A stretch of 64,000 nt of DNA from contig JABAKD010000026.1 of NCBI GenBank assembly GCA_012845835.1, positions 8,852,558-8,916,557 on the forward strand, read 5' to 3'. A model generated the notes under the pieces. It saw only the letters and a program-made list of their open reading frames with translations, was not told the DNA's origin and searched no databases. This document shows, piece after piece, positions 5,001-48,880 of this stretch. A program made the position numbers and the translations under genes. The stretch's first letter is position 1; every line of letters starts with the position of its first letter. Source of the stretch: Undaria pinnatifida. Taxonomy: Eukaryota; Sar; Phaeophyceae; Laminariales; Alariaceae.

Positions 5001-8000
5001 GCTCCCGAAACGGTGTGCAGTCCTAAAGGGGGTGAACCCGTTTAGAACTGCCCCGAACGTTTTTCGGCACAAACCGCAACAGGTGTCGCATATATTTAGC
5101 GTTGGTGAAAGGGGATGCGTAACCCCGTTGAGCAAGACGTTTACTAGAGCCAAGAAAACCGAATCAGTTTTATCAAGCGCCTACCATAGACAAAAAAACA
5201 CACACAATGACTTATTAACCCCTTTACAACTGGAAACCCGTTTCTGTGGACAGCATTACTTGGATTTAGTATAGGGAGGGGTTCGGGGGCTCTGAAGGGG
5301 TTGAGCGCCTACTACGATAACAGGACACGTGCAGCAGAACAGCCATCACCATGCTGCGCGCGTGTGGTATGTACAGTTCCTTACCGACGCGTGAGCCACG
5401 AAGAGGTAGCACTTTTTGGCTTATTTGTTTTTTGAATAACGGGGCCCCTTAGCCCAAAATTGCGGGAATGTCATTCTTGTTTCGGTAGTATGCTTTTTTG
5501 CGTATACCTAGGCCATGGGATTGTTCATCACAAAAGCACTCCAAGTTTACTCGAAACAGGTTTTAGGGTGAGATACTACAAAAACAAAAGTACAATCCAG
5601 CTGTGAGATCGAAGATTTCGTCGAAACTCATCTTTGCAAGCTGTGTGTGATACTCCGATCGCGCGTATTACGGGTTGCGTGTCCTCATTAAGGACATAGG
5701 TCGGTGACTCCCCTTGGAACTACAGTGTAGCTTGTACCAGGGTCAACAGGGTGATGTTAGTCAGTCTGTGCGCGGTTAGTGTGAGATATATAATGTATGT
5801 CGTGTATGGCATAATGTATAGAGCTCCTTAAGAAATGAACGTCAGCGAAAAATGGCGAAATGGCGCATCTCCACCGTGCTATGAGTACTATTAGTAATAC
5901 TACATAGTATACTGCTGTATTAATAGTAGCAAGTGCCCACACGTCCTACTACGGCAGACCCGGCTGTTTCGTATTGCCGTTATTGCCGATGCTGCAATCA
6001 AGTAATTTAATCGTCACTTTACTTTACACATTGTTCTCCTCTGACGGTCCCAACGGGTACAACGTTCTAGTTTTGAGCTTTTAGTTTTTACTTTTAGCTT
6101 TAGCTTTACTGTAGTTTTTTTTTTTTTTTTTTTAATTTTATTTATTTTTTCTAAAGGTACACCTTCTGTGAACCTTTCCTTTCACAAGGTCAGCTATAGC
6201 GCAAAAATCCACACAACGTCGGCGAACTGCAAACGGCAGTCGTTGGAAGAACCTTTTCGAACGCCAAAAATCACGCCAACCTCACAGAACGTGGAAAAAT
6301 CCGCACGTTTACTGATTTCTTTATGTTCCAAAAGGTGCTCAAAGGTCGGTCTTTCGCCCACCCTCTACGAGTAATGTTCGACGAAACGGGGAGGGTTCCG
6401 TTCACCCCTGTAGCGATAGACGCGACGCTGTACAAACACCAGCGGTTCCTCCTGCACTCGCAAAAGCATTCACCTCGCACCTCACACCTGGCATATATTT
6501 AATATCGACGGTACTTACTGCTTGTGTAGGCTACAGCCTTGAATCTCGGCCGCTTGAGTGCAAAAATCTTAAATCTCCGATTTCTTTCCGCACAAAAGCC
6601 CTAAACCTTTGCTGTTCCTGCGTAAAATCCGTACGGACATCTTCGCTTTTTATTATTTATGTGTAGGCCACAGATAAACGCCCGTTATTTCTTACCTCCT
6701 GTTTCCGGTTTTTCATCTCCCTGAGCTCGAGAATTCGACGCCCGCGCTCATTGCCCCCTCTCTCCTCCAACGAGTGCCGCAGGGCCTCGGCCAGCAGCTT
6801 CTCCGCATCGATCACGCCGCAGCTATCGCTGCAAAACCTCGAGTCCGGTCGAGACCGTCGCTCGCACCGCTCCGCGGCGCACGGAGGTCTGACCTCTCCT
6901 TCGGTTGCGCCTTCCGCGTCGCCAGCAGCTACACTGCTACTGGTACCGCCGCCGTCGATTTGAGGTGTGACACCGCCTTTTCCGCCGGGGGAGAGAGCAT
7001 TCTGCTCACTTGCGTCGCCGGCCGTAGTCACCTACAGAGGAGGAAGAGGAGGAAGGGGGGAAGGAAGAGGGAGGGGACGAGGAGGAGGGGGAGGAGCAGG
7101 GGGATGCCGAGAAGGGGACGAATATGTCATGCAAAGTTGGTGTGGCATATCAAACGCCAACCATTTTTTCCAAGCCAGGCCGAGTCGCACACACCACTAG
7201 CAACAAAACAGAAAAATGAACGGCTTCAAAATAGAAAATCCGGTGTAGTCGCTCACGTTGAGGTCGAAGACACCATGCAGTTTCCCGCCCCCCTCGGCCT
7301 CCTTCTCCAGGAATTCCAGCATGCTTTTGCGCTTACCCCGGGCCAGCGCCATCTGCTTCAGCACCGAGGCATAAGGCTCCTTGTTCTGAGTGCGGTACAT
7401 CTGCCGCGAGCACGTGCGGCACAGAGCTCCGTTCCTCGCGTCCGTGTGAAACACGGCCTTGCCAAGCCCAACCTTGCCACACGACACGTGAAACGAGCCA
7501 AGACACTTGTCGCAGCGCACGATCGTACCCGGCGCGTCGAGCCCATCGCAGCCGCCCTCTGCCAGGTCGTACGCACATCGCCTAGGACAAAGTGGAAATC
7601 AAATCGTCCGGGTTGGAGTTGGGGTTGTGTTGTGTTGTATTGGGTTGGGTTCGGTAGACAACAGCTCTGAATTGTCTTGCACGAAACATGGAACAGAGTA
7701 GGCAACAACGCCCGCCCGCCCACCCGCCTTCCCAACCGCCTTCCCACCCGCCTTCCCACCCGCGCTGAGAACCGACGTACGCCTGCGCTCGGCTCGGCTT
7801 GACAGCATCTCTCGCTTACCTGACGCTAGGGTCGTCGTTGTCCTCAGTCACCTTCGTTTCGACCACGGCAGCCGAAAAATCCATACCCGTGCGGGGGGTG
7901 CCGAGGAGAGCTCTGAGACACGGAGCCAGCGGAGAGGGAAGAAAAAACTGTGAACCGGAAAGGGCAAGGAGCAGGGATGTGAGTTGGCTGACTATCCGGT

Positions 8001-11698: not shown

Positions 11699-14600
11699 CT
11701 CTGCCAGAAAGCGGGTGGGCGGGCGCGAAGCGTGAGCACGGGCAAGAGCGTTAGTGCAAGCGCGAGCGTGAGGCTCGCGGGACGGGGCGCATATTTTGTG
11801 TATCCCCTTCCCCCTGAATCGCTCCGCCGCTACCCATTAGAGAACTCCTTCCACAAAAAAAAACAGCAACAGCAACATGAACGATAGCAGGAACGACAAA
11901 GCCAACATAGACAACAGCGACGACGGCAGAACGAAAATCTTAACAAGTTGCCGCCTGTTTTCATGGCTCATGTTTTGTCCCTTGACCTCCTGCCTCCTCG
12001 AAGCCCAGTGGAAGGATACCGCGGCGTCGTCGGCAGGACATGCCGTTCAGTCCCCCCAGCATCTCCCTTTTCTCCCTGTTTCGCTTATTTGATATTTTAA
12101 GTTTCGAGTTCTGTTGCACATAGAGTCAGTTCGGGTCCTCGCCGAACAAACACCGGATGGATGTGGTTCAAGTGACACGTTCAACGGGGTCTCGCGCCAA
12201 GCGATACGGTGCTCTGCGCGACCATTAGGACGGACTTTCCGCGGAAGCAGTCAACTTCCTCCACTCACCAGCGTTGTCGGCGTTTACATATAGATTTCGT
12301 GGGTATGGGGGTTCCGGCTTTATGCTCTCTGGGCCAATTCGTCGCGGTAGCCGCCCCTGCAGCCTGAATGAGCGACAGATGGGAAGAAGGGGGCGTGTGA
12401 GCCAAGTCGCAGGAGAAAGATGGAACGCTTGCTGTGTGTGTACGCACGCGCCAGGCAGCCCTCGGGTACGCTTGAACGCTTCATCATGCGGAGGGAGAGT
12501 TTTCAAAGTCGCGCAAAACGCGCCATCAAAACGTTACTTGTACTTATCTACCAGGCACGACTGCCGATATCTTGCGCTGATACATCGATCTCTCTGAAGC
12601 TACCAAGGGGGGCAACTTCAAAAACGAAAATAACAAGAGTGGAGTGCTGAGGCCGAACCAGAAACACGAAGGCGTGGAGCACATGCGACCGACACCAGGG
12701 TAGTACAGTCCTCGGCTCGCTCGCAGGTCGACAACCAACATGCCACAAGCTTGCTGGTGGAAGCTCTCCCGTGAACATCTTTCGTGGCTTTCACGTTGCG
12801 TACGATACTTTTCATCATAAACTCTCGTGAGATAGTCTCGCCCTAACTGAATGGCTATTTGCGACTGGATCTAGCTCACAACATCCGATACAAAGCACTC
12901 ACGAGAGAGATCTTGGTGCTTCCGTCGCAAAAAAAGAGATTGAGGCCCCCAGCCAGCGAGTAGCGCCAGGCAGGATGCCTCTTGGGGAATAAGAAAAAGT
13001 GCGGTATGGGCTTTCGCGGGACACCTGCGTGATCGGCGGGAGGGGGTAGACAAATCAAATCCCCTAAAGGGTTTCAACGTCTAAAAGCATGTATTTCCAG
13101 GGGTCCTTTCGCGTCGTTAACCGACATACAGCAGTAGCTACCCACGCCGCACATTGTAGTGCGAGTGTACGTGTCGTCGGGCGGGGCTATGAAGAATGAG
13201 CGCTACAACACGCTGTCGCAGAACACAAGGACGCCAAGCCGGCGGTTGCCCGGTCTCCCGGGGGTGCCCGCTTTGATCCGAAAGTGAGCCGATATTGATA
13301 TTTCCTCTTTCTGAAAGTACTCCCGAGAGCAGCTCTTGTTTTACGTGAGGACTGAAGTGCGTCGCTCGTTGTCTCATGTTTCTCCTGTGCTGAGCTGAAA
13401 GCGTGTGCCCGCGGTCCTCATCGTTCGCTGTAACAACGGTGAGTCCCTTTAGTCGACGACTCCTGAAGAAGTCGGTCGCCACGGAAAAAGTCAACCCCTA
13501 TATCGATATATCTTGCTCTTGTCCTTGCAGCGGGTGGGTAACTTTTGGATAATGGATTCGTATGGCAGGACAGGCAGTTTGAGCCCTTCCTCACGCTGCT
13601 GAACACCAGCATGCAACATGCCACTCATGGCAAGCTCGCTACTTGGTATGTATTAATTGAACGTGTACAGTAGTCTACGTCGCAGACTATGCGCGTTCCA
13701 TTCTGACAATCTTTGGGTTCTTTCTGTGTTTGGAGCTGCGAACGTTGTTCATGGATCGCATCTAATCGCAGCTAGCTCGTAAAGGTATTAGACTAGACTA
13801 AACTATAGTCGTACTATGGTCACATTGTGCAGGCCGAGAGACTGCTGCTACTGCAGCCTGCTGTGCGATGTCAAACGTAAGGACTGCTGCTTGTACGCCA
13901 GTCCTTGTGCTCGTATAAGGGCTAGTACAAGCATTGCTATGATAGCGTAACCCGTCGCCCGACAGCACACGACCCCGACTTGACCATATGACCCCACATG
14001 TATGCGTGATGGTCATGTGTGATGGGTGCGGTCGACACACCGCCGCACCAGGCATGATACACGATACACCCACACACGAATACAACAACTGGAACCGCTC
14101 ACATAAGCAGCAGCTTGTTCGTGTGATTTCATACCAGATGCTCGGTCGTAGTATCGCGTACGCACCATATCATACCAGGTATCATATCACATTCAGCCAC
14201 TGCAGTACCAGCCGTACCAAGGATTACCTTGCCCATTTGTATGGTAATACGTGGCGGACGGCTGACCTCTCATGACTACTGCTGTGATACTATTAATAGC
14301 ACTCGTAGGGCATACCAGGTAGGATGAAGCCAGTAACCAAGGAAGCAAGGACGTGGTTGCATGAGTGGGGGAGTAAGGTGCTTTGTTGCTCTGTTGGTTG
14401 TTGTATACGTTGATGGTTTGCTTCGTGTTCCTGGTAGGAGTATATATCGTAGTATCAGCAGTAGCGACGCCACTAGGTAGAGCACAGCAGTACCCTGTAC
14501 GTGGCAGCACTGGAATTTTATGCAACAGCCGCAATGTAATGTGCATGCAATGCTTGAGAGATCGCGTTTACGAACGTTCTTCAGGATTGCGGCTATTAAC

Positions 14601-21359: not shown

Positions 21360-21939
21360 GTTTTTATAGTCGGAAAGGTTAATGTTTTCTGTCCGTAGGC
21401 CTTTGTCGGCGACGCCTATGTTGATCGGAACTAAAAAATGACTCTTGTGAAATGTGAAAATACTGCTGCTTGCTGCCGTGTTTGAAAGCTCGAACCAACG
21501 ATTGGGCGAACGTCCGCGCCCGTTTTTCCCCGCCCCCCCCCGCTTTTCGTATGCATATATGAATATGCATACCATCTTATGAGGGGAAGCTTACCATCAG
21601 CCGCCATGACATATAGAGTAACTGAAGGGTTTTCGGCCGATTTCCGCGCTGAAAATCATTTTATCGTTGTTTCTTTTTGTCCGCAACGGCTGACCTTTAA
21701 GCCTTTTTCTGTGATTCCTATTTTCAACAAATGACCTAAAGTATGGCCATTGACTTTATTCCATCAATGTTAGTGTGACCTGTACGTACTGCTGCGTGCT
21801 GTCGTGTTAGCTCCTTGAACGAACGATTGAGCCATTCATTGTCCGAGCCCTTTTTTCTCATTCGTTTTTCGTTCTCCTGTTCGTTCTTCTTTTTGTTCTT
21901 GTTGGGATTTTTTTGTCGTCACGAAGGCCTTTGTCGGTG
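21360..21939 (+). repeat. Two diverged upstream copies of the permease 5' region
   Basis: 21,360-21,545 and 21,650-21,880 share an ordered series of phrases: TTTTTGTCCG-like, A(A/G)GCC TTT, TACTGCTGC.TGCTG(C/T)CG, GAACGAACGATTG or GAACCAACGATTG, and a T/C-rich end. The head of the unit (AGGCCTTTGTCGG) recurs just before and across the permease start at 21,925-21,960. This reads as an old tandem duplication of the promoter and first-exon edge. Confidence 0.45.
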
Positions 21940-24900
21940 ATGCTGGCGGAATCGAACGAAGAGACGCTTGTCCGGCACCTGACGCTGTTCGACCTCGTTG
22001 TATTAGGCGTGGCCGGAACAGTCGGCAGCGGCATCTTCGCCATCGTAGGCCTCATCGGACATGACTGTGAGTTTTAGTAGGCGGCAGGAGGCGGTTGGGG
22101 GGGGGGGGGGCAGTCGGCACTGGCATAGTCGCCTTCGTCGGCCTCATCGGGCTCGACTGAGTTTTAGTAGGGGAAGGCGGTAGCGCAGGGGGTGGGCGGG
22201 GGGGGTGGCAGCGGCAACTTCGCCCTCGTAGGCCTCATCGGCTCATCGGTACCGACTGTGAGTTTTAGTAGGGGAGAGGAGGCGGGAGGGAGGGAGGGAG
22301 GGAGGGAGGGAGGGAGGGAGGGAGGGAGGGAGGGCAGTCGGCACTGACATATTCGCCATCGTACGCCTCACCGACAACGACTATGAGTTATGATATGGGG
22401 AAGGAAGGGAGCGGGGGGAATTGGCACCGGCATCTAAAACATCGTAGGCCTCATCGGGCACGATTGTGATTTTTCTTTTTAGCATACAAAGTAGGGGGAG
22501 GGGGGGGATCGGTGGGGACACTTGGCAGCGGTGTCCTCGCCCTCCTAGGCCTCATCAGGCACGACGGGTGCAAAGGCTTTGTTAATGAAGCCACCCGGCA
22601 CTACTGTTGATAGTATCCTATCACGACTTTTAGTGCTTTCTGTTGGTTGCATCGCCCGGCACTATTGATATTAATGTTGTGCCGTTTCAGGGTACGTGCA
22701 AGGTCCACCTGGTATATGATACCGCGCACTCGATAGCCTCTTCTCAACCGACAGTCGAAACGCCACCTTTCTGTGTGCACCCTCCGTTTTTTTTGCCGTT
22801 AAGGGATACACAAAGACAAGGCTGGAGCTCTCGCAATGGGAACTCGTGCTAGTGGACGTTTGTAACCGTTGTGAACTGTTGCCAACCCATCCCAACCTAC
22901 CACAACCCAATCCTGCTGGTACATGCTGCTGTGCTTCTATGCTGGTGCTGCTATCTCACAATTATTGTTATTTTTGTGAATTCTTCCATGTGGGAGATCC
23001 CAGGGTGTTTGGCTGGACATCGAGGTCCGGGCATGACAGGGTGGAAAATAACCCCCTGTGTTTTTGGCGTCAATCACAATTTTTTTCACTTGCTTCGCCA
23101 CGTACTGTACATGCCTGCTGATATGCTGATATGCAGATGCCGGGCCAGCGGGTATCGTGAGCTGGGTGCTGGCGGGAATAGGGTGCATCTTTAGCGGTCT
23201 GTCGTACGCCGAGCTGTCGTCGATCATCCCATCCGAAGGGGGTGCCTACGCGTACGCTTTCGTGGCCTTGGGAGAGCTGCCCGCGACCATCACCGCCTGG
23301 TGCCTCACCCTGGAGGTAGGGTTGGCGCTAGGGCAATGTGGAATGATAACGTTAAGTGACAGGCGGGGTCGGGGGAAGGGGGAAGGGGGCTGATGAAGGA
23401 GGGGAGATGGAGGAGTCCGTTTATCAGCGCTGCGTGTTTTCATGTAGTGCTGGCTGGCGTGGCAAAACTGAGTTCGCAAGAACTACGTATTGTGGTATAT
23501 ATTTTCATTGTAGTTTCATTATAGTCAAGACCGAGAAGACGGGGGGGGGGTTGTACCCTAAGTTACCCCCTAGCCTTCCACTCGAAACCATGTGTGCGAT
23601 GTGCGGTGTGGAGTTCTCACTGTATAAAACTGTTAACATATGGCCCAGTACGGCTTATGTACCATAGTACCAATAAAAGCATAGCTGCAGCGCGAAGCAC
23701 GCCCCCTCCCATCCTCCCCCTTTTCCTCCGTTTCCATTGTTAACTCCCTCCCCCGACTCCTGCTATGCACCCCCCGCCCCCCCCCGCCCCCCCCCGCCTC
23801 CTGCTGCAACACAAAAGTTCGGCGTGTCGGGCGCTGCCGTGGCGCGCGTGTGGGCCGACAAGATTTTGGAATGGGTCGTGATGGGGGACGACTCCGGTAT
23901 ACGGCGATTTTCAGTGACCGTTCTTGACCCATTTCCCTCCTTGGGCATCAGCCCGCTCGCCGCGATTCTTCAGGCGATTTGCGTTTTTATTCTTCTCAGG
24001 GGGGTGACGGTCGGGAAGCGCATCACGACCGTGCTCACGGCCCTCAAGGTAGGTGGTGATTTTGATCGGAATTACTTCTAAATACTAGATTAACGTAGAG
24101 AAATTATAATTATGGAACTGTTGATTTTAGATGATACGCTCAGCTTGGCAAGCGTTGCGTGATACGCTGGCCAATATCTCTTCGCTCGTCGGAAATGGTG
24201 AGACAAACACCCGACTTGGACTTGTTTTGTCTTTTTCCGTTTTCATGACAACCACGATTACAAGGAAACTAGGCGGGCGGGCGGGCGGGCGGGCGGTCCC
24301 GTCATTCGTCCGCGTGTATCGCCCCTGCTATTCTATGTACCACTTTGTTGTTCACACCACGGAAGAGCTCCACACCCGACCACGACCACCAAGGAAACCC
24401 TGCCCCCCCCCCCCCGCCCCCTGCCCCTCCCTTCCTCGCCCTTTCCCCGCGTCTCCCTAAGGAAAGAGAACCACGACCACCAAGGAAACCCCGCCCCGCC
24501 CCCGCCCCCTGCCCCTCCCTTCCTCGCCCTTTCCCCCCGTCTCCCCAAGGAAAGAGATAACATAAGCAAACCTTTTTATGTGCTATACGGAAAAAGCATG
24601 ATGAGCGCCGAAATGTTACAGGTGTCTCTGGTAGGAGTAGGAACGATGCTGTGTCTCGAGAGAGATTTGTGGTCAATGGTCAAAATTACTTCGTAAGGCA
24701 AGCAACAAACGAGTAGTCCCTTTCCTCACTCCCCCTCCCCTCCCCTCCCCTCCCCCCCACTCGTTCCTCCCCCCCTCCCTCTTTCCCCGTCAATTCCTTC
24801 CCCGGGTTTGTTTCGTCTGCGCGAAAACCTCAACTTTGTGCGAAAAAGATGGCCGTCTGCGCTTTCATTATTATTGCGGGCTTGGCGCTCTTCCAAGGCG

Positions 24901-27900
24901 AGAACTTGGTGCCCTTCGCGCCCATGGGGGTTCCTGGAATTGTCAGGGGGTCAGGAGCGGCATTCTTTGGCTACTTGGGCTATGACGAGGTATGCTTGTG
25001 TATGGTATACTATGCGTTCTCGCTCATATGATCGATGACTGGTTTCAACATTTGTTATTTGCCAAAACTCCCAAGCTCAATTCATTGTTTTGTTTTTGGT
25101 CTCGCCTCCCCCCTCTCCCCCGACTGAAAATGGAATGGCTTCAACATTTCTTTTATGAAGCGAAAAATCAAAAGCATCACATTCTCCAGATACGAGAGAA
25201 TATCTGTTTTGGATCATACGCACGGAATTTTTTTTTGGCCAATCAGATCAAAGCAAGGTGATTTTATAGCCTTGAGGCGCACCTGTTCAGTTGTTAAGGC
25301 GATGACCGTTGGGTGGAGCACGCAGTGAGGCAGAGTCAGCGCTACGGGTCCACGGTGTGATGCGTACTTTCATTGTTGACTGTTAGATGTTTTGTTTTCT
25401 TTCTCCGTTTTTTGTTTTTTTCCAGGTTTGCGCACTAGCGGGGGAGTCGATCAACCCGCGCAGGGACGTGCCCTTGTCCATCGCCTACACCCTGGTCATC
25501 GTCGGCACCACGTACGTCCTGTCCGCCTTGGCGCTATCGGGGATGGTGCCCACCGATAGCTCCCCGGCTGCGTCGTCGTTTGTGTTGGCGTTCGACGCTA
25601 GGGGTTGGGGGGTGGCTTCCCAGGTGAGCAGGAGGAGGAGGAGAGGCGGCAGGAGGAGGAGGAGGAGGAGAAGGAGGAGGAGGAGGAGGGGGAGGGGGGC
25701 GAGAAAGAGGAGGAGGCTTTCGTTTTTGTTGAGTTGTTCTTGTCAAGTCCGTGTCGTGGTTCGTCGTTTGTGGTAGCGTTCGACGAGAGGTGGTGGGGGG
25801 TTGCTTTCCAGGCGAAGAGGAGGAAGAGGAAGGGGAGGCGAACGCTGTCGTCTTCGTCTGTTTGATTTTTGCCCTGTCCGTGCTGTACGACTCCTTGGAT
25901 TGCAGTCCGGCCACAATATTGTATTAATGTATCATACCACGACCAGCCAGTGGCTGATGTAATCGGCCGTGTTTGTCGTCACGTTTTCCGTCTCAATTGC
26001 CAAAAGGAATGCACATATCACATATCACATACCGCATATTACACATCACATACGAATCATATCACAATACGGCATATCGAAGCATATCGAATGTCACACA
26101 TCACATATCACATGTCGCATATCACGTATCGCATGAGAAGACAAAACTAATTTATGTCCAGACAGCATGCGATGCTACTCTAAATGTCGTACGCTCCTCG
26201 TCATCCCCGCCCTTACCATGGAAAACGCCAACAATATCTATAGTGGCGACCGATGCCTAATACCCCCCCCCTCTCGTCCCTTCGCCTCGCCTCCCGTACA
26301 CCTGGTTCGTTTTTTCCCTCTCCTCCCTCCCTCCCTCCCTCCCTCCCTCCCTCCCTCCCTCCCTCCCTCCCTCCCTCCCTCCCTCCCTCCCTCCCTCCCT
26401 CCCTCCCTCCCTCCCTCCCTCCCTCCCTCCCTCCCTCCCTCCCTCACTCCCTCCCTCCCTCCCTCCCTCCCTTTCACTTGACGATGCATGTGGCAGCTTG
26501 TTGCTATCGGAGAGCTAGTGTCTTTGCCTGTTGTTGTTCTCGCTTCATTTCTGGTGAGCAAAGGGTATTCCGCGGCTTGAGTTTTGAAGCTTGTTTTTCG
26601 ATCGCGCTTCTGGCTATGGTTGTTCGACCGCTTCGCGCTTCGAGCCACGTTTATTAGGCTACTTGGACTTTCGAGCCAAGTTTGTTAGACTGCGTTGCGT
26701 TTTTTCGAGCCACGTGTATTTTGACTGGTAAGCGTTTCGAGCCGTCCTTGTTCGACTGCTTCGCGTTTCGAGCCACATCAATTCGACTATTTTCGCTTTT
26801 CCAGCGATCTTTGTTCGGCCGCTTTGAGAGGTTAGCTGTTTCGTTGGTCTCGTCCTGACCTGTGCTCTTGTCTTGCCTTCTACCTGGTACCGCCATGCTT
26901 TGTTGCCCCCTCTATAGGTGCAACCGCGGCTGCTGTTTGTCCTTGCGACCGACGGGCTGCTGCCGAAGTCTCTGTCGACCACGGATGAGCAGGGGGTGCT
27001 GAGGACGTCAACTCTGATATCGGGGGCGGCGATGGTGCTCACGGCAGGAGTAGCACCGTTTGCTGCCCTCGATGACTTTATCTCCGCCGGGGTGCTGGTG
27101 TGCTTCGCGATCACCAACTCGTGCGCGATCGTCATCAGGAGGTATGTACGGCGGTAACGCTATGTTCACGCGAGAGCGTGTGCAGTACGGCAATTTATAT
27201 CCGGCAGTTTATATCCACACCACCACCCCCACGTCCACCCCGCAAAACCCCCCCACTCCCACCGCCACCAATCGCGCAAACCAACCCCTGGTTAACTTTT
27301 GGCGGGCGCTCTGATTCCTCTACCACCCCTACCAACCCTCACCCAACCCTACCTCACCCTGCCTTTCGTTGGCATTGCTCGTTCTTGTTGGCCGTGTTAT
27401 TATGTTCAAGTGTCGCTATACCCCCCCCCCGCCGCCCCTGTCTCCGCCTCCCCTACCAGCTTCCTTTCCCATATTTCACTCCTCTCCACTTCACTCCAGC
27501 CCCCCCCCCCCCCCCCCCCCCCCCCTTACCCGCCTTTTCATTGACAACTCCCACTCCACCCCATCTCAACCCCACCCCACCCCCGCCCTTTTCATGACCA
27601 GGTCCAACCTCGATCCAATCCTACCGGGGCCCTGCCGTCCCTTAGTCCTTCTTTTCAATGGACTCTGCCTCGTGGGAGGGTTGCTGGTGAGGGTGGCATC
27701 GGCGGAGGCGGCTTCAGCTGGGAGCACGGCTGCGGCGGAGGCGGGGGAGGCGACGGCGGCGACGGCGGCGGCTTTAGTGTTTTTGGCGGCTGGGCTGGTC
27801 ATCATGGCGGTGTCTGTGTGGTGTCCTGAGCTGCCCCAACCTCTAGGCGGGCCCGAGGTAATGCTGTTGGCTGACGTGGTGGTTTTATAGTAGTTGAGGC

Positions 27901-29142
27901 GTTTTTTGCAGCAATGTGGTGTTGCGGAATGGTGGTGCAGTGTGGTAGTTGCAGCTGTATGGCAAATTGCAGTATGCTGATCCTGTCTGTGTCGGTATGG
28001 TGTCCTGAGCTGCCACACGGTCGTGGCGGTCCCGCGGTAATGTTCGCTGACATTTGGCGTTTTTGTGGTATTGCGGAGGCGTTTCTTGCAGCAGTATGGT
28101 GCTGCAGTATGGTGTTGTGGCTGGCGGTGTCAGTGTGATGTCCTGAACTGCCTCACCCTCTCGTCGGTCCCGAGATGTACTAAGCGTTTGTTGCAGCAGT
28201 ATGGTGTTGCAGTGTGGTGTAGCGGTGCTCTATGCTGTTTCAGTATGGGGTGTTTTAATATGGTGTCGAATGGTGTTGCAGTATGGTAGTGAAATGTGAT
28301 ATTGCAGCAGCACGAGTATGTTGTTTTTGTCTTCGGCGTTGGCGATCCTGTCTGTGTCGGCGTGGTGTCCTGAGCTGCCGCACCCTTTGAGCGGTCCCGA
28401 GGTAATCTTGGCTGATGTTGGGGCTTATTTCCTAACATTGTTCCATGGTTCAGCGCAGATTTTTTTCATGATTTGTCCTGTGGTTTGTTCCATATGATGT
28501 GTTCAACGTTGTGTTTTATTAGGTATTGCATAATTTTTATTGCGTGATTCGGTGCGTGCTTTGTTCCATATGATTTGTTCCATGTTGTTCGTTCTGTGTG
28601 GTTTCTTCTATTTTTTGTCCATTCCTGTCGCATGTTCCCTGACTTGTTCCATCGTCCCATCTTTTATTCCCTCGTATCGTCTCTCTTCTGCTTGGCGGCT
28701 CGACAGGCTTTCCGGGGCCCTTTCTCCCCCTGGGTGCCTGCGTTTGGTACCGTGGTGAGCTGGCTCCTCCTTGCACAGTTGAGCTGGGGCAGCCTTAGAT
28801 GGACGCTCTGGGCTAGCATCGGAGTGTGCATTTGGTACTTCCTCTACGGGTGAGACACGTCATCGTTACGCTGCCACTGCTATTCTATTCATACTATTAT
28901 ATGGAATCGCCTGGGGTAGCCCCAGCCTCGATGTAAATCTCTACCTATTTTCCCCCCTGGGCAGTGTCAGCTGGCACGAGCGCGTTGTTGCTGATCGGGA
29001 CGCTTTGCTCGCACCGTTCAGCGTGTTTTCAGAGCGATTTGCCCCAATGGTGACAATTAGCCCGCGCCTGAAAGTATCACTTAACGCCCTGTTCCCAAAA
29101 CCGGTGTCTTACGGGCTGTTTGGAGCGTTAAATTCGACTTAA
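21940..29142 (+). CDS. Amino-acid permease, APC superfamily / cationic amino acid transporter type, 10 exons
   Basis: Exons: 21940-22066, 23137-23315, 23818-24048, 24849-24989, 25426-25623, 26497-26553, 26918-27141, 27602-27857, 28707-28849, 28965-29142. All introns are GT..AG and phases close over 1,734 nt (577 aa plus stop). Membrane carrier, expected 12-14 helices, for amino acids. Diagnostic sequence: LGVAGTVGSGIF in helix 1 (residues 22-33), the substrate backbone-binding signature of APC carriers; SYAELSSIIPSEGGAYAYAF in helix 3; GVSGAAVARVWADK after helix 4; FFGYLGYDE then ALAGESINPRRDVP in helix 6 and the loop after it; PRLLFVLATDGLLP after the helix-8 segment; a closing RGPFSPWVPAFGTVVSWLLL helix pair. 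The ATG at 21940 is 22 residues before helix 1; a further upstream exon is not excluded. The last junction is least certain: without it the protein ends YFLYG at 28,853. Introns 1, 5 and 8 contain copied exon ends. Substrate is not predictable from sequence alone. Confidence 0.85.
22067..22600 (+). repeat. Intron 1 array: about five extra degenerate copies of the exon-1 3' end with its splice site
   Basis: The true exon end (GGCAGCGGCATCTTCGCC...CATCGTAGGCCTCATCGG.. then GACTGTGAGTTTTAG) is repeated at about 22,110-22,165, 22,205-22,270, 22,330-22,395, 22,420-22,480 and 22,520-22,570, separated by G-rich spacers. The second and third copies keep the encoded G-(S/T)-G...GLIG sense. Donors are mostly altered. 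A pure (GGGA)n run lies at 22,286-22,334. Confidence 0.75.
24376..24556 (+). repeat. Two-copy ~90-bp duplication in permease intron 3
   Basis: Two adjacent units starting CCACGACCACCAAGGAAACC, continuing through a C-rich run, then CTTCCTCGCCCTTTCCCC and ending AAGGAAAGAGA. They differ mainly in C-tract length. Purely intronic. Confidence 0.7.
25624..25865 (+). repeat. Intron 5: GGA-rich tract and a partial copy of the exon-5 end
   Basis: After the exon-5 donor (CCCAG|GTGAGC) comes an (AGG)n-type purine tract to about 25,725. At 25,757-25,822 the exon end returns: TCGTCGTTTGTGGTAGCGTT, then CGACGAGAGGTGGTGGGGGG, then TTTCCAGGCGAAG. It parallels the real exon (TCGTCGTTTGTGTTGGCGTT...) but the GT of the donor has become GC. 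A second short purine tract follows, so tract plus exon end appear to have been copied together. Confidence 0.7.
26322..26473 (+). repeat. (CCCT)n microsatellite forming the polypyrimidine tract of intron 5
   Basis: About 150 bases of almost uninterrupted CCCT, with one CACT interruption near 26,445. It ends 23 bases before the acceptor GTGGCAG of the 57-nt exon. The long Pro/Ser/Leu and Glu/Gly/Arg frames over it are artefacts. Confidence 0.9.
26497..26553 (+). CDS. Exon 6 of the permease, 19 codons
   Basis: Flanked by GTGGCAG and CTG|GTGAGC, in phase 0 at both ends. It encodes LVAIGELVSLPVVVLASFL, matching in place and character the hydrophobic IVA.GAL.GLT..L segment that CAT-type carriers have just before PR.....A.DGLLP. 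Without it exons 5 and 7 still join in frame, but a whole membrane segment is lost. It is too short to stand out as an open frame. Confidence 0.75.
27780..28430 (+). repeat. Exon-8 end plus intron-8 start in four tandem copies
   Basis: Copy 1 is the real exon end (GTGTGGTGTCCTGAGCTGCC...GAG|GTAATG). Further copies are centred at about 28,000, 28,140 and 28,370, each with T(A/G)TGGTGTCCTGAGCTGCC-like sequence; the intervening intron parts share TTGCAGCA.TATGGTG(T/C)TGCAG. Copies at 28,000 and 28,370 keep an open frame in the exon-8 sense, have TTGCAG upstream and end in GTAATG or GTAATC. They are candidate alternative exons; the middle copy has lost the donor. Confidence 0.75.
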
Positions 29143-30775: not shown

Positions 30776-33700
30776 TTAATTGATTGGCGGCAACAATTTT
30801 GGTTATGTGTGGCGTACGTGGTAGGATTTTCCATGAGTTGGAGTTAGTGTTCAACGCTTTGGTACTGTGTTTGCGGGGAACCGAAACCTTGATGTATCCC
30901 TCGTTTATCCCCATAGAAAATAGAGCTAGATCGATAGTGTTCCCGCCTGAACCCGCCACTACTTGATGCATGTGCTCAGAAATGTATGTGTGTATGATAT
31001 GTGTGTGCGATAATAGCAACAGATCTAGAACCGATCCACCCAGCCAATCAGATGGCGTCCTGGAGGCGTGACGAACGCTGAATTATAACTGTAGCCGATT
31101 TTGGCCATAGCAGCACCGTGTATATACCTGTGTTTGGCTATCGCTAATAACGAGCTTTATATCCTTGAACCCTACCCATGGTTCCACTCTGTCCAAAAAA
31201 AATACTTGGCCTGGTCGAGACTCGCGTGAATGCTGCGCTCGCGATGCCCATCTTCCAAGCTTTCCCCGCTCTATGTCCCTGTGAGCCCCGTCTCCCGCGC
31301 GGAGAGATGCAAGCCGTGCTCTGTGGCGCTCGTTCCAACACTCGGCTGCTCCCGGCCTCTACCACCCAGCCTCTCCTGCTGGCATCCGCTCTGTCCGGGA
31401 AATATGAGACCGCGATATGTCTTTTTGTTCAAGCAAAAACGGTCCTTACATTCGGACACGTCTAGTTACCCCGCAAGAGGAGAAGGAACACACCGGGTCA
31501 ACCACGCCCACAGACGCTTTCGCTCCTGCCTCGACGAGCGACCGCCCGCGCGGCGGGAGAGCGCAGGCCGGTTTACCCTTGTCTGAACCCATGCCCACGC
31601 ACCCACGTCGAGATCCGGGGCCGAAACGGCCCAGGGCGGCCCGCCCCCAAACCCCACACCAATCCGATCCGCATGTGTGCTGCTGCTATTAATACTAATG
31701 CTGTATGTTGCTGCTACTGCTGCTATTGTGCTGCTGCTGAGGTTAATTTAGTCCGGGCGGTTGCTGCTACTGCTGCTGTGCTGCTGCTGAGGTTAGTTGA
31801 TTAGCGGGCCATTACCAAAAACAAAAAATTGTAAAAGTTCATCAAAATATCAGAATTTGAAAAACAATTTGGGGTGTTTCCAAGTGACCTGCTCGTCTCA
31901 GGGAGGCGGAACGCAATCCCTTGCCAAATAAAGCCAGCTAAGCGGCGTTTAATGCGCCGAGCGCCGCCACGGAGCTCGGCCGAGATCCAGACATGCTTCA
32001 TGATGTACCCATGGCAGGCTAGCTTGCCCCGCGGCCGAAAGTGCGAGAAGGAACACTCGGCCGCCGGAGAGCAGCGAGCCCAAAAACAACGAAGATCATA
32101 TTTTACGTATACACATACCTGGCATGCCCAGCCCTCACGAAGATCATATTTTACGTATACACATACCTGGCATGCCCAGCCCTCGTTTTCATGGCTGTTG
32201 ACATTGCATATGCATAGCCAAATTACCTTGCTGAGTGTGCGATGTGTGTCTCTGCCATGTAGGTCGTGGCCACAGTTCTCGTCTCTCTAGGAGAGGGCAT
32301 CGGCACGGACACTGGGTGTGCTTGATACACACAGCTGGCAACATCAGCTTAGTGTGAAAACACACACAAGTTTTTTTTTTTTTTCAACAGTTTCAGGCTG
32401 ATTTCTTGTGAGATACCTTAGGAGCGCGCTTGGCACTGTCTTGTACACGTAGACGAGAACGGCATGGAGATTAGTTTTGTATTGGGCACGGGCACGATGG
32501 TGACGGTATGGGCATCACTGCTGCCGTCAGAAACAGTGCGCTGCTGATCAACAATGGTTGTGCTGGATGTACATGGGTGGGAATACAGATATCCGTTCAA
32601 TGTGAAGAACACAAACGCACACACCGAGAGCCCAGAGCCCATACGATAGATACAGACAGACCTTGGTAGAGGGTAGGCGCTGCTGTAGGAAACACGATTT
32701 AGTAATCATTGTGTCGATGTTGAACATTGTTTTGTGTCGCGATTGACGGTTCAATGTCGATTTTTTTACGAGCAACCCAACGCGAACCTGCATGGCTCCG
32801 GACAAGGCCGCATGGCCTTAGATGAAAGCGTCGAGGATTTTAGGATGATTCATGCTCACGGGAAGCTGCGCGAGTTGTGGTGAGGTCTTCCTTTGAAGTT
32901 GTACGAGAATGCTCGTGCTGTTTGCTAGATACATCTCATTGAAGAACGCCGAAAAAAACACGTTTCTTCTCAGCTTTCAGAATTAACAGTTATGACGATC
33001 GACCCTCGACCTAGAGACACACACTACTCGCAGGGCTAACCGATGCTGCTCCGGACAAAAGGCTACATGAATGGAGATGACGCCGTTTAAGCTTTTCAGG
33101 TTGATCCATGTTCTAGAGGTCAAGAGCTTGCCAGCGTTGCTGTTGTGGGTCTTCTCTCGAGATGCGCTGCTGGCGCGAGGCTCCGCTTTTTTTCGCTGAT
33201 TCCCATAATGATGTCGTGTCGCCCCCTTTTAAGGCACTGTTGGTCCCTTAAAAATGATATCGTCCGTTTTAAAGGACCTTATGTTCCTTAAAGACGGCCA
33301 AAATGGATTATACCTGGTATAATTATCTGTAAGGGACTTTCGGGGCCCGACGCACTATGGTCCCTTAAAGGGGACCACCTATTGTAGTATTGACTATTTG
33401 GCGTTTCCGTGATTAGTTAACTGGGGTTATTTGGTTATAATCAAGTAGCTGATAAACCTATACTTTTTCCGGAGGCGATGTCGAAGCGGAGATGCCATCG
33501 CGGAGGGTCTACGTGCCGAGTTCCCTTGTCGATCGCCGTTCACTGCGGACTCGGGCTGAAACTTCATCTTCGTTGTACCAGGGTAGGTAGCAAGGAGGAT
33601 GCACTGCGGACTCGGGCTGAAACTTTATCTTCGTTGTACCAGGGTAGGTAGCAAGGAGGATGCTAAGCTAGATCAGACTCGAGGGGGACCGAGGGTTCCC

Positions 33701-41835: not shown

Positions 41836-43480
41836 GGAACAAGTAAATTTTTGGCACCAAAGATTTTTCGTTTTTCACCTGATGAACTGCCCCAATGTTA
41901 TACGAGATGCCATACGTACTCGAAATATCGTTGTGTACTCACGCCCAGACCGCCGAGAGTATGGCCAGACACGATCCTTTTCACGAATATGAGCATCATC
42001 GTATCTCTGCCTCGATCGGGGCAGAGTCCGATGATATCTCGTTGGCGCGATCTGTGATGCGCATGTGCTTGATCATGCTGTAGAAATTGTTGCTATTTCC
42101 CCGTTTATTTTTTTTTCTGCACAAGCAACACAACTCGATCGATCGAACCGTTTCCAAACGCACGCACACGCTCTCGGCCCACCAGTATCGGGGATTGAGG
42201 AGATAAATAACAACCCGTATCTGCACGTAATATCATACTGGTCAAGGCGAGGCCGCTTCTGCGCTCGCTTCCTGTGCCTCGTATGAAGCGCTTCGCCTTC
42301 GATGTTGCTTCTTGCTTTCGCGAATTCCCCGATTCGCCGTCTAGCGATGACCTCGAGAATCACGAATCACGAATTATCTGGTCCAGTGAGCGACCGCTGT
42401 CCAGTTGTAAACAACAGCTCTGTCTGTTCGCGTGTTCTACCAGTCTGCCAGGCACCGTCCCGTGCGGTATCCACTTGGTATCTCCACAAGCGCGATCGAC
42501 CAAACAATGCCAGCTGCTGCTGTAAAAGTAAGCTACGTGCGTACTCCGCAAAAAAAACTGATGAACCATAACGCCGAATTATCTCTATGAACAACAAACA
42601 GGATCTTATTCTTATCGGTTCCCGATTCCTAATAATGTTTCTCTTTATAGAGGTTTTCAGTGTCTGTTTTTTTTTTTTTTTCGCAGATCGCATGAAGGCG
42701 TAGGCCCAACCCAACCCTAACCCTAACCCCGACCCTAACCCTAACCCAGGGCAAAAGCTTCCAACTCTGTGCACGATTAGGACAACCTGAAAATATTATG
42801 CGGCCCGCCCTGAGGCCACCTAACAAAACAATATTCTTGGTACCGCATCTGGACTGTTGGGGGACTTGAGAACTCACTGAAGTCCCACGCGTGCGCGATT
42901 TGCCCTTCTACTACTCGTGGCTGCTGCTGCGGGCGCTGATAAAACACTGCCCAACTCTCCGCCAAAGCGGCGCGTTGTGGTATGTGTGTAGGGTGTGCGT
43001 TTCCCATGCGCACCTCATGTGTTCATACGAATAGTCCCTTAGAGTTCTCGCGCGTAGTTTGGAGATGGCGAACGACAACAACAACAGCCGCAGCAGTTTC
43101 ATACTGCTGTGGGAGGAAGGGCATGGAAGCTGTCCTCCTTCGAAGCCCACGGTTCCCTTCTCGTCGGAACAAGCTCGTAGCAATGACTGCATCTGGTGTG
43201 CTCATGAAGCTGCCGCCGCCCTCTCTCCCTCCCCGCACGCGACAAACACAACAGCCGTTTACAGTCACCTCCACTAAATCATCTGCCTTTTAATGGTCAA
43301 GGCGGATACGTACGCAAGTACGGCAAGCATCCCGCGATTCTTTGGGCCCAAGAGCAACATCCACCTCCTTATGTACCTGGTACACACATGATAATCATCC
43401 ATCCCTTTCACTTTATAGCTCTACTCGCAAGAGCTTTTATCCCGAGCGGCCTTCGGGACAGGCCGTGGTCACAGGTGTCT
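41836..43480. other. Intergenic, with an interstitial telomere-type tract
   Basis: (CCCTAA)n-type sequence at 42,706-42,748. A T17 run ends at 42,681. The region 42,911-43,290 has open frames on both strands without recognisable domains. Nothing else is supported. Confidence 0.4.
42706..42748. repeat. Interstitial telomere-type repeat (CCCTAA)n
   Basis: CCCAACCCAACCCTAACCCTA-type sequence: two perfect CCCTAA pairs separated by CCCCGA, about seven units in total. The same word, degenerate, appears at 14,696-14,745, and in the opposite orientation (GGGTTAGGGCTGGG-like) at 49,977-50,035. Confidence 0.7.
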
Positions 43481-43499: not shown

Positions 43500-46400
43500 A
43501 CGTGCTGTCATTTGTTTTTACCAGTGTAGACTATAGGGTCCAGCATTTCCAACACCGCGAGCCAGTCCCTCGGCCTGATGACGCTGAAGATACCAGGATT
43601 CGTGGACGGCGCTCCGTAAAGTTTGGTGGTGTAAGATGATGGCAGGAAGTCGATCTTGATCGATCCCGGGTGATAAAGGAAACGGAAGATGGAGAGGTTG
43701 GCGGAATAATTGTCGGTCGAGGCGCGACGGGCTACTTTTCCCAACCACCAGAGGCCGTCGCGGGCTTTGTACCAGAAGTGCACCCTCGCGGGAGCGTAGT
43801 GGAGCTGAAGCGTTCAAGTCAGAGAGTGCGCGGGACGAGGCTATACCCGTGAGTAATTAATAATATTTCGTCTCGGGTCCGCCCTAGTTCGCGGTGAGCG
43901 GCCCCGATCCGCATCTGTCGGTATATGCGGTTGGACTGGCGGTATTGTGAAGGGGTGCCCGACCAATAGCGGAGGATGCGAAGCCGGTGGTGTTGTAGGC
44001 CTTGTTTGTGTTCCCATGAAGGGCTGAGGAATCTGGCCCAATGGGTTTCCTACATGACCGCGAGAACGCCTCCCCGGCCGCGAACTAGTTTATGTCCCGA
44101 CATCTGGCCGAAATTGAAGCGTTCCTGCGGTGGAGAGATGTCGTCGAGGGTGACCTGAAAAGGCGGAGACTTGGAGAAGGAGTTGAGCACGTACTTGATG
44201 AGGTCGACTGGAAGATGTTTTGGTGTGTGGTGAATCTCGTCGGGGATCCGGCATGTTTTTCAGCGGAGAACGGAGACGCGAGATTTGGAGACGCGTCCAG
44301 GCGTGTCGGACGGGAGATCAAAGTGCAGGAGTTTGTCGTGAAGAGGCCGATCATCTGGGACAGCGGAGGCCGGTGCAAGGCCCACGGCGAGGATCTGAAA
44401 GGACCGATCCAGTTGAAGGACAGCTTGGTCTTGAGGACAATGGTGCCGATGCCCTTTCTGGCGCCTTGGCGAATGGTGGTGGCGGAGTTGTAGATTCACG
44501 CGCAACCGTTGACGGAGAATGGGGGTAATAGGCGGAGGGCGTCTATGAGGGGAGCGTTGCGGCGGTTGATACGTGAGTTGTAGATTGCGTGCAATTCCCA
44601 GACGGCGCGTTACTAGCGAGCGGTGGCGAGGTCGATATACGCTAGCTGGTCCCGGTTGAGGCTTTGATGTCCGCCGATGTTAGGGAGATCGAAGACGGTA
44701 AGGGAGAGGCGAGAGAGACGACCCATGTGTACTTTGTTGGGGGCGTGTCCGTTGGCTGCGCTGACGGAGTTGTACTACACGCTCTCGACGTGTGGGAGTG
44801 GAATACACCAATCAGTTCGTTGTTCGTCGCCGACCATGCCGAGTATGAGGGCCATGATGCGGTTTGACGCGCTCGACACCGCCGTTGGTGCACGGGTGGT
44901 AGGTGCTTGTGGCAATTTGGTTGATGCTGAGGTGGTCGTAGAGGGCGAGGGAAAGTTTGGAGCAAAATTGGAGTCCGTTGTCGGGAAGAAGAGTGACGGG
45001 GTATCTATCCCTAGAGAGGGATGTATCGGTGGACAAGAATGTCAGCCTTGCCGGAGGCGGTAAACTGAGCCTCTGCAGTAGCGTACATATCGGCGCAGCG
45101 GCTGAAACGGTCGGTAAAAAGGAGAATGTAGGCGTTGCTCCGAGGTGTTAGAGGCAGGAGGCCGAAGTAGTCGACGTTGATGAGAACGTGGGGGCCGTTT
45201 GGCAACGGCAAGGAAATGGTAGGCCAGCGAACTGTTGCCATGACCTTTCGCGCGCTTGGGACTTGAGGCAGCGCCGGAGCCACCAGCGGGTGGAGATACC
45301 CATGCCGATCCACCGGTAGAGACTCTTAAGCATGCTAAGTGTCTGAAAAATACCCAAGCGGCAAGAGGTGGTGGAGTGGAATGTGTGTAGGACCCATGGG
45401 CTCATCAACTTTGGAACGTAGACGCGGGGGGGTGGGGCAAGGGTCGGGGATGGAAGAGTGCAGGCACGGCGCGTTGAGTCCGCGTGTGGTCGGTTGACAC
45501 GCAGAGCGGTGTTGTCCTAGGTGGTATATAGCCGGCTTATTGTGACGAAGGTTTAGACCTCCGCAAGAGGGGAGCGACGGGTCGAGGTGATCTTGTCCAA
45601 GAGATCTTCCGGTGGTGGCAAAGGTAAACCTAGAGAGAGGAACCGGAGGGTGGCGGAGCAGGGGGACTCGGCGCGTTGCTCGCGCGCCCAATCGGTGTAG
45701 ATGAAGTGCTCGACGCAGAAACGGAGATAAATGTCATCAATATGCTCGACAACGGGTTCCGGTAGACGAGGTGATGCTTGCAGAGCAGGGGAAGGCAGGG
45801 GAACGCAGGGGAAGACGCCTTGAGACGGTAGTCTGCGATGGTGGAGGGGGCTCCGGTTGGAGGGTACTTGATGAGGTCGTGGTTGGAGATGACGACTTAT
45901 TATTTTGCAGAGCGGCTTGGGGTAATAGCAGGTCGTTGGGGCGCCAGCTTGGACCCAAGAGTAGGTGAGCGGCGCTGGGGAGATGGTGGTTTTGAAGTAG
46001 CGGTAGCCGGGACCGACGGCCAAATCCGTAGTCCGCAGGAGTACGGGAAGTTACAGCGGCGGAGCGGTGCCGGGTCCGAGAAGATGTCAGGCCCGACGAG
46101 GCACGAGAAGCTTTAGAGGCCGAAACCGAGACGCCCGAAGTGGACGATGAGGAGACAATGGGTGGCCTGGAAGCGAAACTCGGAGGAGCGCCAGCGACCA
46201 CGGCGGCTTTCTTGAAGCTGGAAGGCGATTCGGAGATGTAGTCGAAAATAGAGATGTGGCCGACAGCAACGCTGCAAGGCGAATTGACGGCGAGGTCGAA
46301 GGCACAGCGTAGGCCAGTGGAAACGCGGTGGGGCGATGCTGCGGCGGGGTCTTGGTCTTGGGCAAAACGTGGGCCGGCGGAAACACGGTGAGGCGATGCC

Positions 46401-48880
46401 ACGGCAGGGTCTTGGTCTTGGACGAAGCGTGGGCCGGCGGGAACGCGGTGAGTCGATGCCGCGGCGGGGTCTTGATTGTAACGTGGACAAGCGAAAGGGC
46501 GGCGAGGCGAGAGGTGGTATGGCCCTGAGAAAAATGGGGGCCAAGGGAAAGGCGGTGAGGTGATCCGGCGGCGGGGTTTGGGGTAGCGATGGTGGCCACG
46601 AATGGCCAAGTAACGGCGGCCGCAAACGGCCGAATAATCTTGGCTGAATCCGAGGTGTCCACACGCGATCCGTGGCGGCCGAAGTCGCCGAAATCGTTGT
46701 TGGCGCAGGGGAACGGGGGATGGGGTTGACGTAGCTGGAGGCAGGTGGGATGAGCCCACTCAAGTCATGCCTGGGGTGAAAGTTTCGATAGCAGTGAGAC
46801 CGCAGGCTTGGATGAGGTGGATGCTGATGGTGTCGGGGCGGGCGAGGTGGTTGGGTCCGGTGCGGTCGAGGGCGGCAACCGGTAGCGGCAGGCGGAAAAG
46901 GAAGTTGGCATTACCGTTACCGTTTGCCTAGCCTTTTCGGTACCCCAAAGTGTAGGAGTACGGAGAGGAACTCCAACCAGCGCCGTACGCAAGTTTTGTG
47001 CTCGTTGACCTTGGTGATATTGTTAAGCGCCTTGTGGTCGGAGTAGATGAGGAACATGGTAGTCCAGAGATGACCGCGGATGCGTTTGATGGCCCAGACG
47101 ATGCTCCCGGCTTCGAGGTCTAGAGGGGTCCTGCCTCGTTTGCTGTCGAGGGTGGTGCGGTTGATAAGACGATGGGGCGAACGGAGCCGTCCGGTTGATC
47201 TTGCTTAAGGATGGCGCCGAACCGTCGATGGTGGCGTCGCAGTAGAGGCGGAAAGGGCGCGAGTTGTCGGCGACGGCGTCCCAGTCCGGGTAGACCAAGA
47301 TCGGGGGAGCGGTGAGCTCGTGGAGAATGTTTAGGAAGATGACCTCGGTTTCTGGGGTGAAACGAAATTAACGCATTGCGTCCGCAGGGAATTAATAGGA
47401 CGGAGGCGAGTGGGAAAATGTTGAGGAATTTTCGATAGTACCCAAATGCCTCCAAACAGTGAACGAATCTGCTTAGTGTTCTTGGGCATGGACATCTTGG
47501 TGAGGGCGGCGACCATGTCAGCGATAGGGCTAACGCAGGAGAAGAAGATTGTATGTCCCAGGAAATCGCCGTCGGTGGCGCCAAGCTTGGCCTTGGTGGG
47601 GGGAAGTTTGAGGTTGTGCTTCCGAAGGCGTTTGAAAAGAGAGCGATTTGGCGAAATGGGCAGTGGCGTCGGGATCGAAGACTATGGCGTCATTAAGAGA
47701 GACGGCGTCGCGATCGAGGTCTTCGATTACCTCGTTGATGATCTCCATAAACCAGCAGGGCGTGGCATTGCTACCTTGGGGCATGACGAGTCTATCGAAG
47801 AATCGGGTGGGAGTGCGGAAGGCGGTAAATGGTATGGTGTCCTTGCGGACGGTTATCTGGTGGAACGAAGACACAAGGAAGATCAGGAAAAATATGCGCC
47901 CTTTTCCCATAGAGTCAAGGACGTCGTCGACGCGGGCGACAGATATCTGACCCATGAGGCTGATGGCGTTGAGCTTTTCGTAGTCCACCGGTATCCGGAC
48001 GCTGCCGTCCTTCTTGGAGATGGCGACCAAGGGGCTGGCGTACGGAGAGGTCGAGTACTGAATGAGGCCTGCGGCTAAGTATTGGTCGAGTACCGCATCG
48101 GCCTGCTGGGCGAGGAGAGGGCTGATACGGTACGGGCGGGAGAACACGGGGGCCCTGTCCTGGGGGATGGTAATCTTGAACGGTATAAGGAAGCACGAGC
48201 CAAAATCGGTTTTGAATGTGGAGAAGACGTCGGAAAGTTTGCAGAGGAACGTTTCCGAGGTTCTCGATGATCGATGGGGACTAGCCAGAACCGTGAAGGT
48301 CGAACGTAATGTCCCGTGAGTGGAGGGGTAGCTGATCCGAGACTCGGAGGAAGCTTATCCGTTGGTCATCGCTCAGGCGCTCCAAGAGCTTGGGGCAGGG
48401 TGTCTTCGGCTGCAGGAAGAGGGTTGGTCCGAGCGAGCACGTCGTCGGCCACGAAAATGTTGTCGTGAAGGGCGTGGATGTCGGTGGGACGAATGGTGGT
48501 TAGTGGTTCCGTGGTGATCTCCTGTAAGACTGATAACGGAATTTGTATGAGGGGAGAAGAAGAGTTGCCAAGGAAGTCGCCTGGTTCGAGGTCAGTGAAT
48601 CCCGAGAGCGGGATTGATACCCACTGGCGTCGAAAAGTTCTGTGTCCGAAGAAACACCGTCGCGGGGAAGCATCTCAACCAGGTAGTGGCCGGTGAGGGC
48701 TGGGATACCCGAGGAACAGACCAAGTTGACTGGGACGAGAGACGACGTAGACGAAAGTGAAGTTGCGTGAACGCCGATGAACACGGATGTTGCCGACCTC
48801 GTTGAGTGATGCATGATACGTGTTATATGCGAGGCTCGACGTGTGCTACATAAAGGGGTACCGCACGTTCGGGCCAAAGT
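43500..48880 (-). mobile_element. Ty3/gypsy-type LTR retrotransposon, broken
   Basis: A fossil on the minus strand. Parts seen, in element order: a linker/protease-side region (about 48.9-48.2 kb), reverse transcriptase (about 48.15-47.5 kb, with palm-domain phrases such as ISKKDGSVRIPVDY), RNase H (about 47.35-47.0 kb), a long GC-rich stretch with no recognised domain (about 46.9-45.6 kb), then an integrase core (about 45.4-44.6 kb, including LLPDNGLQFCSK) and a C-terminal tail to about 43.5 kb. RT, RNase H, then integrase order places it in the Ty3/gypsy group. It is clearly non-functional, with several breaks spread over different frames. I could not recognise flanking LTRs, so the end points are approximate. 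The decay and missing LTRs suggest an insertion older than the LTR element at 50.4 kb. Confidence 0.8.

Follow-up and report, generated by a model that had tools for sequence, protein, structure and literature searches.

The window analyzed here is a 64-kb stretch of the Undaria pinnatifida genome (GCA_012845835.1, contig JABAKD010000026.1, hereafter C33; C33:8852558-8916557). It contains on the + strand, at ~21.9 to 28.9 kb, a probable amino acid transporter gene, termed W, in which the 3' ends of several exons recur within the introns that follow them. Positions are given in the numbering of the 64-kb window, + strand, except where a contig or sample block is named. Nine exons were modeled for W, with AG/GT borders and consistent phases, and the joined protein matched the Pfam family AA_permease_2 (E 1.9e-40) as well as AA_permease; a match to AA_permease_C was sub-threshold. 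By these matches, W is presumably a transporter of the cationic amino acid type. Exon 1 (21927..22066 in the gene model) lies between the acceptor AG|GCC and the donor GACT|GTGAGT and is probably an internal exon, because its three paralogues show acceptor-like sequence at the same AG|GCC. The other exons that matter here are exon 2 (23137..23315), exon 5 (25426..25623), and exon 8 (27602..27857), all on the + strand.

A preliminary description of this DNA had proposed that the ends of exons 1, 5, and 8 are copied into introns 1, 5, and 8. This was confirmed when the last 60 bp of each of the nine exons was compared with the following intron by local alignment and judged against 200 dinucleotide shuffles: the three ends matched with scores of 32, 35, and 37 (z 16.7, 18.7, and 17.9), each of which was reached by 0/200 shuffles. 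The remaining six exon ends of W showed no copy in the same 60-bp shuffle test (z -1.0 to 2.6), the uppermost value belonging to exon 9 (5/200 shuffles), which was left uncounted.

Nine copies are present in W, five in intron 1, one in intron 5, and three in intron 8, and they are 76 to 85% identical to their exon over aligned segments of 38 to 115 bases. The alignments start at -26 to -80 in the exon, and 8/9 cross the donor to end at +25 to +60 in the intron, with the remaining one ending at -1. Intron sequence past the donor is what would be anticipated in such copies, because a tandem duplication would carry that sequence along. The intron-1 array begins with a unit consisting of the exon-1 3' end plus its donor (unit 0, 22006..22078) and continues with copy 1 (22098..22168; 79%; donor GT lost), copy 2 (22189..22269; 85%; GTGAGT retained), copy 3 (22335..22389; 80%; ATGAGT at the donor position), copy 4 (22408..22474; 79%; GTGATT at the donor position), and copy 5 (22515..22565; 78%; donor GT lost), all on the + strand. 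In intron 5 the single + strand copy (25761..25840; 84%; -51 to +25 around the donor) has GC in place of GT, and a (GGA)n tract (25626..25716, +) separates exon 5 from it. The three + strand copies in intron 8 lie at 27975..28093 (79%; GTAATG retained), 28122..28213 (81%; donor lost), and 28322..28426 (77%; GTAATC retained).

The copies were also used as queries against the whole genome (511,146,479 bases in 68 contigs). The intron-1 units matched only W and three paralogues on C33, with 27/27 candidates scored, and further matches to the intron-1 query fell at 22808-23035 or beyond, outside the units; for introns 5 and 8, 40/244 candidates were scored. The presence of copies in several introns of one gene could be taken to indicate insertion of an introner-like or other mobile element at donors. 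However, the unit in each intron matches its own exon rather than one element common to introns 1, 5, and 8, and the intron-1 units are confined to the loci of this family, so that such an origin is considered extremely improbable. Introners, in the sense of one element present in many unrelated genes, were accordingly rejected for the intron-1 unit. Two other sequences in these introns are dispersed: window positions 22882-22958 in intron 1 have short matches on many contigs and are perhaps an old dispersed repeat, and the GGA tract at 25626-25716 has ~100 listed matches on many contigs, often within arrays, with 40 of 244 candidates scored.

Exon-end copies among four paralogues

Three paralogues of W (P1, P2, and P3) lie on the same contig on the opposite strand, at ~8.43 to 8.51 Mb. 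The intron-1 array is found in all four genes, with five copies in W, three in P1, one in P2, and four in P3; these counts include copies scoring at least 15, one P3 copy is only 35 nt long, and the paralogue counts carry no shuffle control. Because it is present in all four genes, the array probably predates the split of the four paralogues and would have turned over since. A tree of 17 units grouped the final copies of W and P3 (W_c5 and P3_c4) with an ultrafast bootstrap of 90, copies 1 and 3 of W with 89, and the exon units of P2 and P3 with 92. The usual bar for this measure is 95, and with short units and the remaining nodes at 17 to 66, support for these groupings is moderate.

Other borders were affected in only some of the genes. 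Copies of the exon-2 end occur in P1 (z 15.8) and P2 (z 8.8), with none in W or P3 in the same test; the P1 and P2 copies probably represent one event, since the downstream flank is common to both. The end of exon 5 is copied in W only among the four genes. The end of exon 8, which has three copies in W, has a single one in P3 (z 19.6; from -89 to +1 relative to the donor), and no copy of it was found in P1 or P2. The exon-8 units of W and P3 form separate tree groups (99), which favors two origins for these copies, although homogenization could mimic this pattern.

Apparently, then, there were ~5 donor-side origins: one ancestral at exon 1, one at exon 2 (P1/P2), one at exon 5 (W), and two at exon 8 (W and, separately, P3). 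The earlier suggestion that W had undergone three independent duplications holds in part. Repeated gain of copies is indeed seen in the gene family, in the ~5 origins counted, but the intron-1 array shared by the four paralogues would be one old event followed by turnover rather than an event particular to W.

All three paralogues have introns 1, 2, 5, and 8, intron 8 of P3 being covered without its 3' end. Intron gain by tandem duplication was therefore set aside as an explanation, as the introns concerned already exist in the paralogues. An exon-9-like match lies at C33:8495847-8495994 (-), ~5.8 kb past the last matched P3 exon; it may point to a long intron 8 in P3 or be part of a different copy.

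Copies of exon starts

It had also been stated that 5' exon ends are not copied and that copying is exclusive to 3' ends. Neither statement survived the search on the acceptor side. The start of exon 1 in W has a copy in the upstream flank or intron at 21385..21448 (+), comprising a pyrimidine stretch, an AG|GCCTTTGTCGG acceptor, and the first ~45 nt of the exon. It aligns to 21909-21971 across the acceptor AG|GCC with a score of 22.5 (z 8.7; 0/1000 shuffles). The start of exon 1 in P3 is likewise copied upstream (z 9.2; 0/1000 shuffles), and no such copy was found in P1 or P2 in the same test; a common event behind the start copies of W and P3 is not evident. Exon 8 of W showed a weak start match (z 3.3; 1/200 shuffles) that looks CCAACC-rich and was not counted, and the starts of the other seven exons of W showed no copy (z -1.4 to 1.2).

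A third start copy belongs to another gene. The sample outside the gene consisted of 160 kb in four blocks (S1 to S4) from two contigs, S2 including 4,975 N. In S2, a block sampled blindly, the start of the predicted exon 24723-24812 (C1:6,024,723-6,024,812) is copied upstream over -31 to +81 around the acceptor, the copy starting 316 nt before the acceptor (score 53; z 24.8; 0/1000 shuffles). The peptide of this exon gave no notable Pfam match. A match to Tyrosinase (PF00264, E 8.6e-6) came from an exon on that strand 18 kb further upstream, which may or may not be part of the same gene.

The window and sample together were also scanned with a self-trained gene finder. After removal of predictions scoring below 15, shorter than 50, of low complexity, or overlapping, 66 exons were kept. 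At a score of at least 24, copies were found at 3/66 predicted exon ends and 1/66 starts. Two of the three ends are those of transporter exons 5 and 8; exon 1, mispredicted at its end, scored 19. Outside the transporter the counts were 1/58 ends and 1/58 starts, the start being that of S2 24723-24812. The end belongs to S3 28839-29004 (- strand). Its copy, 742 nt distant and 100% identical, covers -40 to +60 around the predicted donor and apparently belongs to a longer identical duplication. Several further matches were not counted. The end matches of S3 7312-7503 (23.5 in the 60-nt test, 30 with flanks) and S4 48104-48357 (18.5, or 23.5 with flanks) fell under the threshold, the start match of S4 45038-45301 (18) dropped to 11.5 with flanks, and a start match of S2 14118-14338 (19.5) was rejected as lying inside the exon, off its border. 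The exon predictions are unreliable, in that different genes are fused into single chains, transporter exons 1 to 3 are truncated, and the kept set lacks exon 6. The scan shows only that end copies and start copies both occur.

State and origin of the copies

The GT at the donor position is retained in 4/9 copies of W and lost in 5/9. Selection that keeps the copies as spare or alternative donors, or as alternative exons, might account for the four, and a first run of the gene finder with a low intron penalty predicted five short exons overlapping copies (22162-22191, 22495-22530, 25748-25792, 28079-28134, and 28308-28401). After retraining, however, 0/5 of these calls were kept, and the strongest of them, 28308-28401, is 94 nt long and thus no multiple of three. 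The donor position was out of frame in 7/7 copies checked, of the nine in W, and in-frame stops are met when the three true (proximal) donors of W are read through, which is consistent with normal splicing at those donors.

The coding content points the same way. Among the exons of the four paralogues, differences at codon positions 1/2/3 numbered 9/6/18 (96 sites each), and between exons and copies they numbered 47/39/64 (of 208/208/207), so that the share at third positions falls from 55% to 43% and the copies differ two to three times more than the exons at first and second positions; these are raw counts without a formal test, the first 12 nt of each unit having been omitted. The copies are most likely inert, decaying intronic DNA, and retention of donor clusters by selection, which had been raised at the outset, is regarded as very unlikely. 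A reading as alternative, mutually exclusive exons was rejected, as frame, splice sites, and coding constraint are not kept in the copies.

The copies are instead probably minisatellite-like tandem duplications that chanced to span splice borders, of the kind called mirages. The first unit is the exon with its donor and early intron, and the other, diverged units are found within the intron. Ordinary slippage during replication, unequal exchange, or repair through microhomology would have produced them, in a gene already rich in G-rich and other local repeats. Such duplications would survive as long as splicing continues at the original outer site and removes the extra units, and afterwards the units would drift and turn over like those of any minisatellite. 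The position of the copies in the following intron requires no special mechanism, since a duplicated donor unit necessarily falls there as long as the first donor remains the one used. The acceptor side is the mirror image, with copies of exon starts lying upstream.

A donor-specific process was also considered, in which G-rich intron starts break through R-loops or G-quadruplexes and repair then copies the exon end. Mean G content over the first 100 nt is 43% in the 9 introns with copies and 26% in the 12 without (Mann-Whitney p 0.005), and over 250 nt (8 vs 7 introns) the difference is in the same direction; both comparisons ignore the relatedness of the introns and are to be read as leads. 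G tracts adjoin many of the intron-1 copies as well as the copies of exon 2 in P1 and P2, and exon ends with copies outnumber starts in the family. There are, however, exceptions in both directions: intron 2 of W (52% G) and intron 5 of P3 (39% G) are G-rich and have no copies, whereas intron 8 of P3 carries a copy at 20% G. G tracts are thus neither necessary nor sufficient for copies.

The claim that all three spacers in W are G- or GGA-rich stands for introns 1 and 5 and fails for intron 8, which is 39% G with no G run of at least 3 in its first 100 nt. The proposed association with G-rich tracts similarly persists as a difference in G content, with the exceptions noted. The introns are related by descent, and G tracts may favor duplication or may be carried along in the copied unit. 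With exon-start copies occurring as well, a donor-specific process appears unlikely. Introns with copies are also longer (median, 1,060 vs 481 nt), which is partly explained by the copies themselves. As a separate observation, several of the transporter introns (window 22066-28706; e.g., introns 2 and 5) have a G-rich start and a C-rich end on the sense strand.

Several points weigh against chance tandem duplication as the whole explanation. Across the family, copies were found at 9/25 tested exon ends compared with 2/24 exon starts, these rows being related by descent. The ends tested were the nine of W, exons 1 to 5 and 8 of P1, and exons 1 to 3, 5, and 8 of P2 and P3, with only 181 bp of downstream sequence for exon 4 of P1; the starts were the nine of W, exons 1 to 4, 6, and 9 of P1, exons 1 to 3, 6, and 9 of P2, and exons 1 to 3 and 6 of P3. 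For P2 and P3, the stretches examined yielded no exon 4. In W, three donors are spanned where 0.58 would be expected from random placement of its eight local-repeat clusters (P 0.010), in a model that uses estimated unit lengths and a gene picked for this feature. The exon-2 copy of P2 is a 29-nt match that stops short of the donor, and concerted evolution may blur which duplication events are independent. Donor use is predicted from the sequence: the proximal donors would have to serve for the protein to be made, because in-frame stops follow them and the seven copy donors checked are out of frame.

On the other side of the comparison, counting distinct borders leaves 4/9 donors and 1/9 acceptors affected (Fisher one-sided p 0.15), and counting events leaves ~5 on the donor side and 1 or 2 on the acceptor side (binomial p 0.11 to 0.23). 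An excess on the donor side is thus unproven, and the start copies contradict a mechanism exclusive to 3' ends. If the surplus is real, its simplest cause would be that the upstream donor is transcribed first and wins, together with the G-rich starts of many of these introns. A broader version, in which introns of this genome often grow by tandem duplication across borders, with a bias to donors because G-rich starts break or are re-copied during transcription, is unlikely. Were a donor bias true across the genome, a source of intron growth linked to transcription would be indicated, which the present data do not show.

Known border repeats and local duplication

Repeats that span exon-intron borders have been published for other lineages, and the suggestion of a new route for intron growth is not upheld. 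One study describes amphioxus mirage minisatellites in Adh3 and the globin genes BflGb6 and BflGb9 (PMC3087553). As in W and its paralogues, tandem units lie over the exon-intron border, 5' and 3' borders are both affected, copy number varies, and splice signals are kept by some units and not all. In amphioxus a tree of units also shows turnover with distinct terminal units, to which the moderately supported grouping of the last copies of W and P3 may correspond. The present case differs in lineage and in that copy number varies between paralogues rather than alleles, and its units are 76 to 85% identical to their exon, compared with 81 to 100% among the BflGb6 units (PMC3087553). Three of five mirage features were found here, namely, border-spanning tandem units, duplication at both donor and acceptor, and copy-number instability among paralogues. 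For the other two, concerted evolution that excludes the terminal unit would rest on the moderate tree groupings (89 to 92), and undisturbed normal splicing would agree with the in-frame stops beyond the three true donors.

Human genes offer further parallels in two reports. The CBS gene has a 31-bp variable-number tandem repeat, c.1444_1467+7(16_21), which by our reading of the notation spans a donor from coding sequence to 7 nt into the intron, and a 68-bp intron 7/exon 8 insertion that, as here, copies an intron/exon junction (PMC2630376). The CBS units are shorter, far more numerous, and polymorphic in people. In human segmental duplications, minisatellite units at exon-intron borders likewise differ between recent paralogues (PMC2812944), but there they are tied to novel introns, whereas the introns here already existed in those paralogues that were examined. 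The Rogers model of intron gain through tandem genomic duplication (potato RdRp, PMC4974935) resembles this case in involving tandem duplication within a gene and differs from it in that existing introns grow here and no new intron position is created. More tandem repeats near intron-exon junctions have been described for two green algae (PMC3887541), and nothing on such repeats was found in the passages of PMC2206037 consulted. No account of exon-border repeats in a brown alga was found among the open-licence papers listed, by title and start of abstract, so no claim is made that they are unreported in algae.

The transporter copies are real and belong to a type of repeat already known, one that has recurred within a single small gene family. 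Border-spanning mirage repeats, in print for amphioxus and human genes, are hereby placed in a brown alga, and the four-paralogue series allows gain, loss, and decay of units to be followed.

Local repeats are common in the DNA sampled. Of 6,459 anchors, 418 have a copy (score at least 24) within the following 1 kb, with the 10-kb contig-end block S1 contributing 103; for the window alone the count is 75/1,907. The contig end C1:1-10000 contains a tandem array with a period of ~1.65 to 1.73 kb, in which one predicted exon appears four times, at 3239, 4966, 6622, and 8269. Two nearly perfect tandem duplications, one of 48 bp (100%) and one of 61 bp (98%), at window positions 32089-32184 and 33541-33663, respectively, suggest ongoing local duplication outside the gene. 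Elsewhere in the window, an interstitial telomere-like AACCCT repeat lies at 42708-42747, and an open reading frame at 47530-48354 (-) resembles a fragment of the reverse transcriptase of a gypsy-type element.

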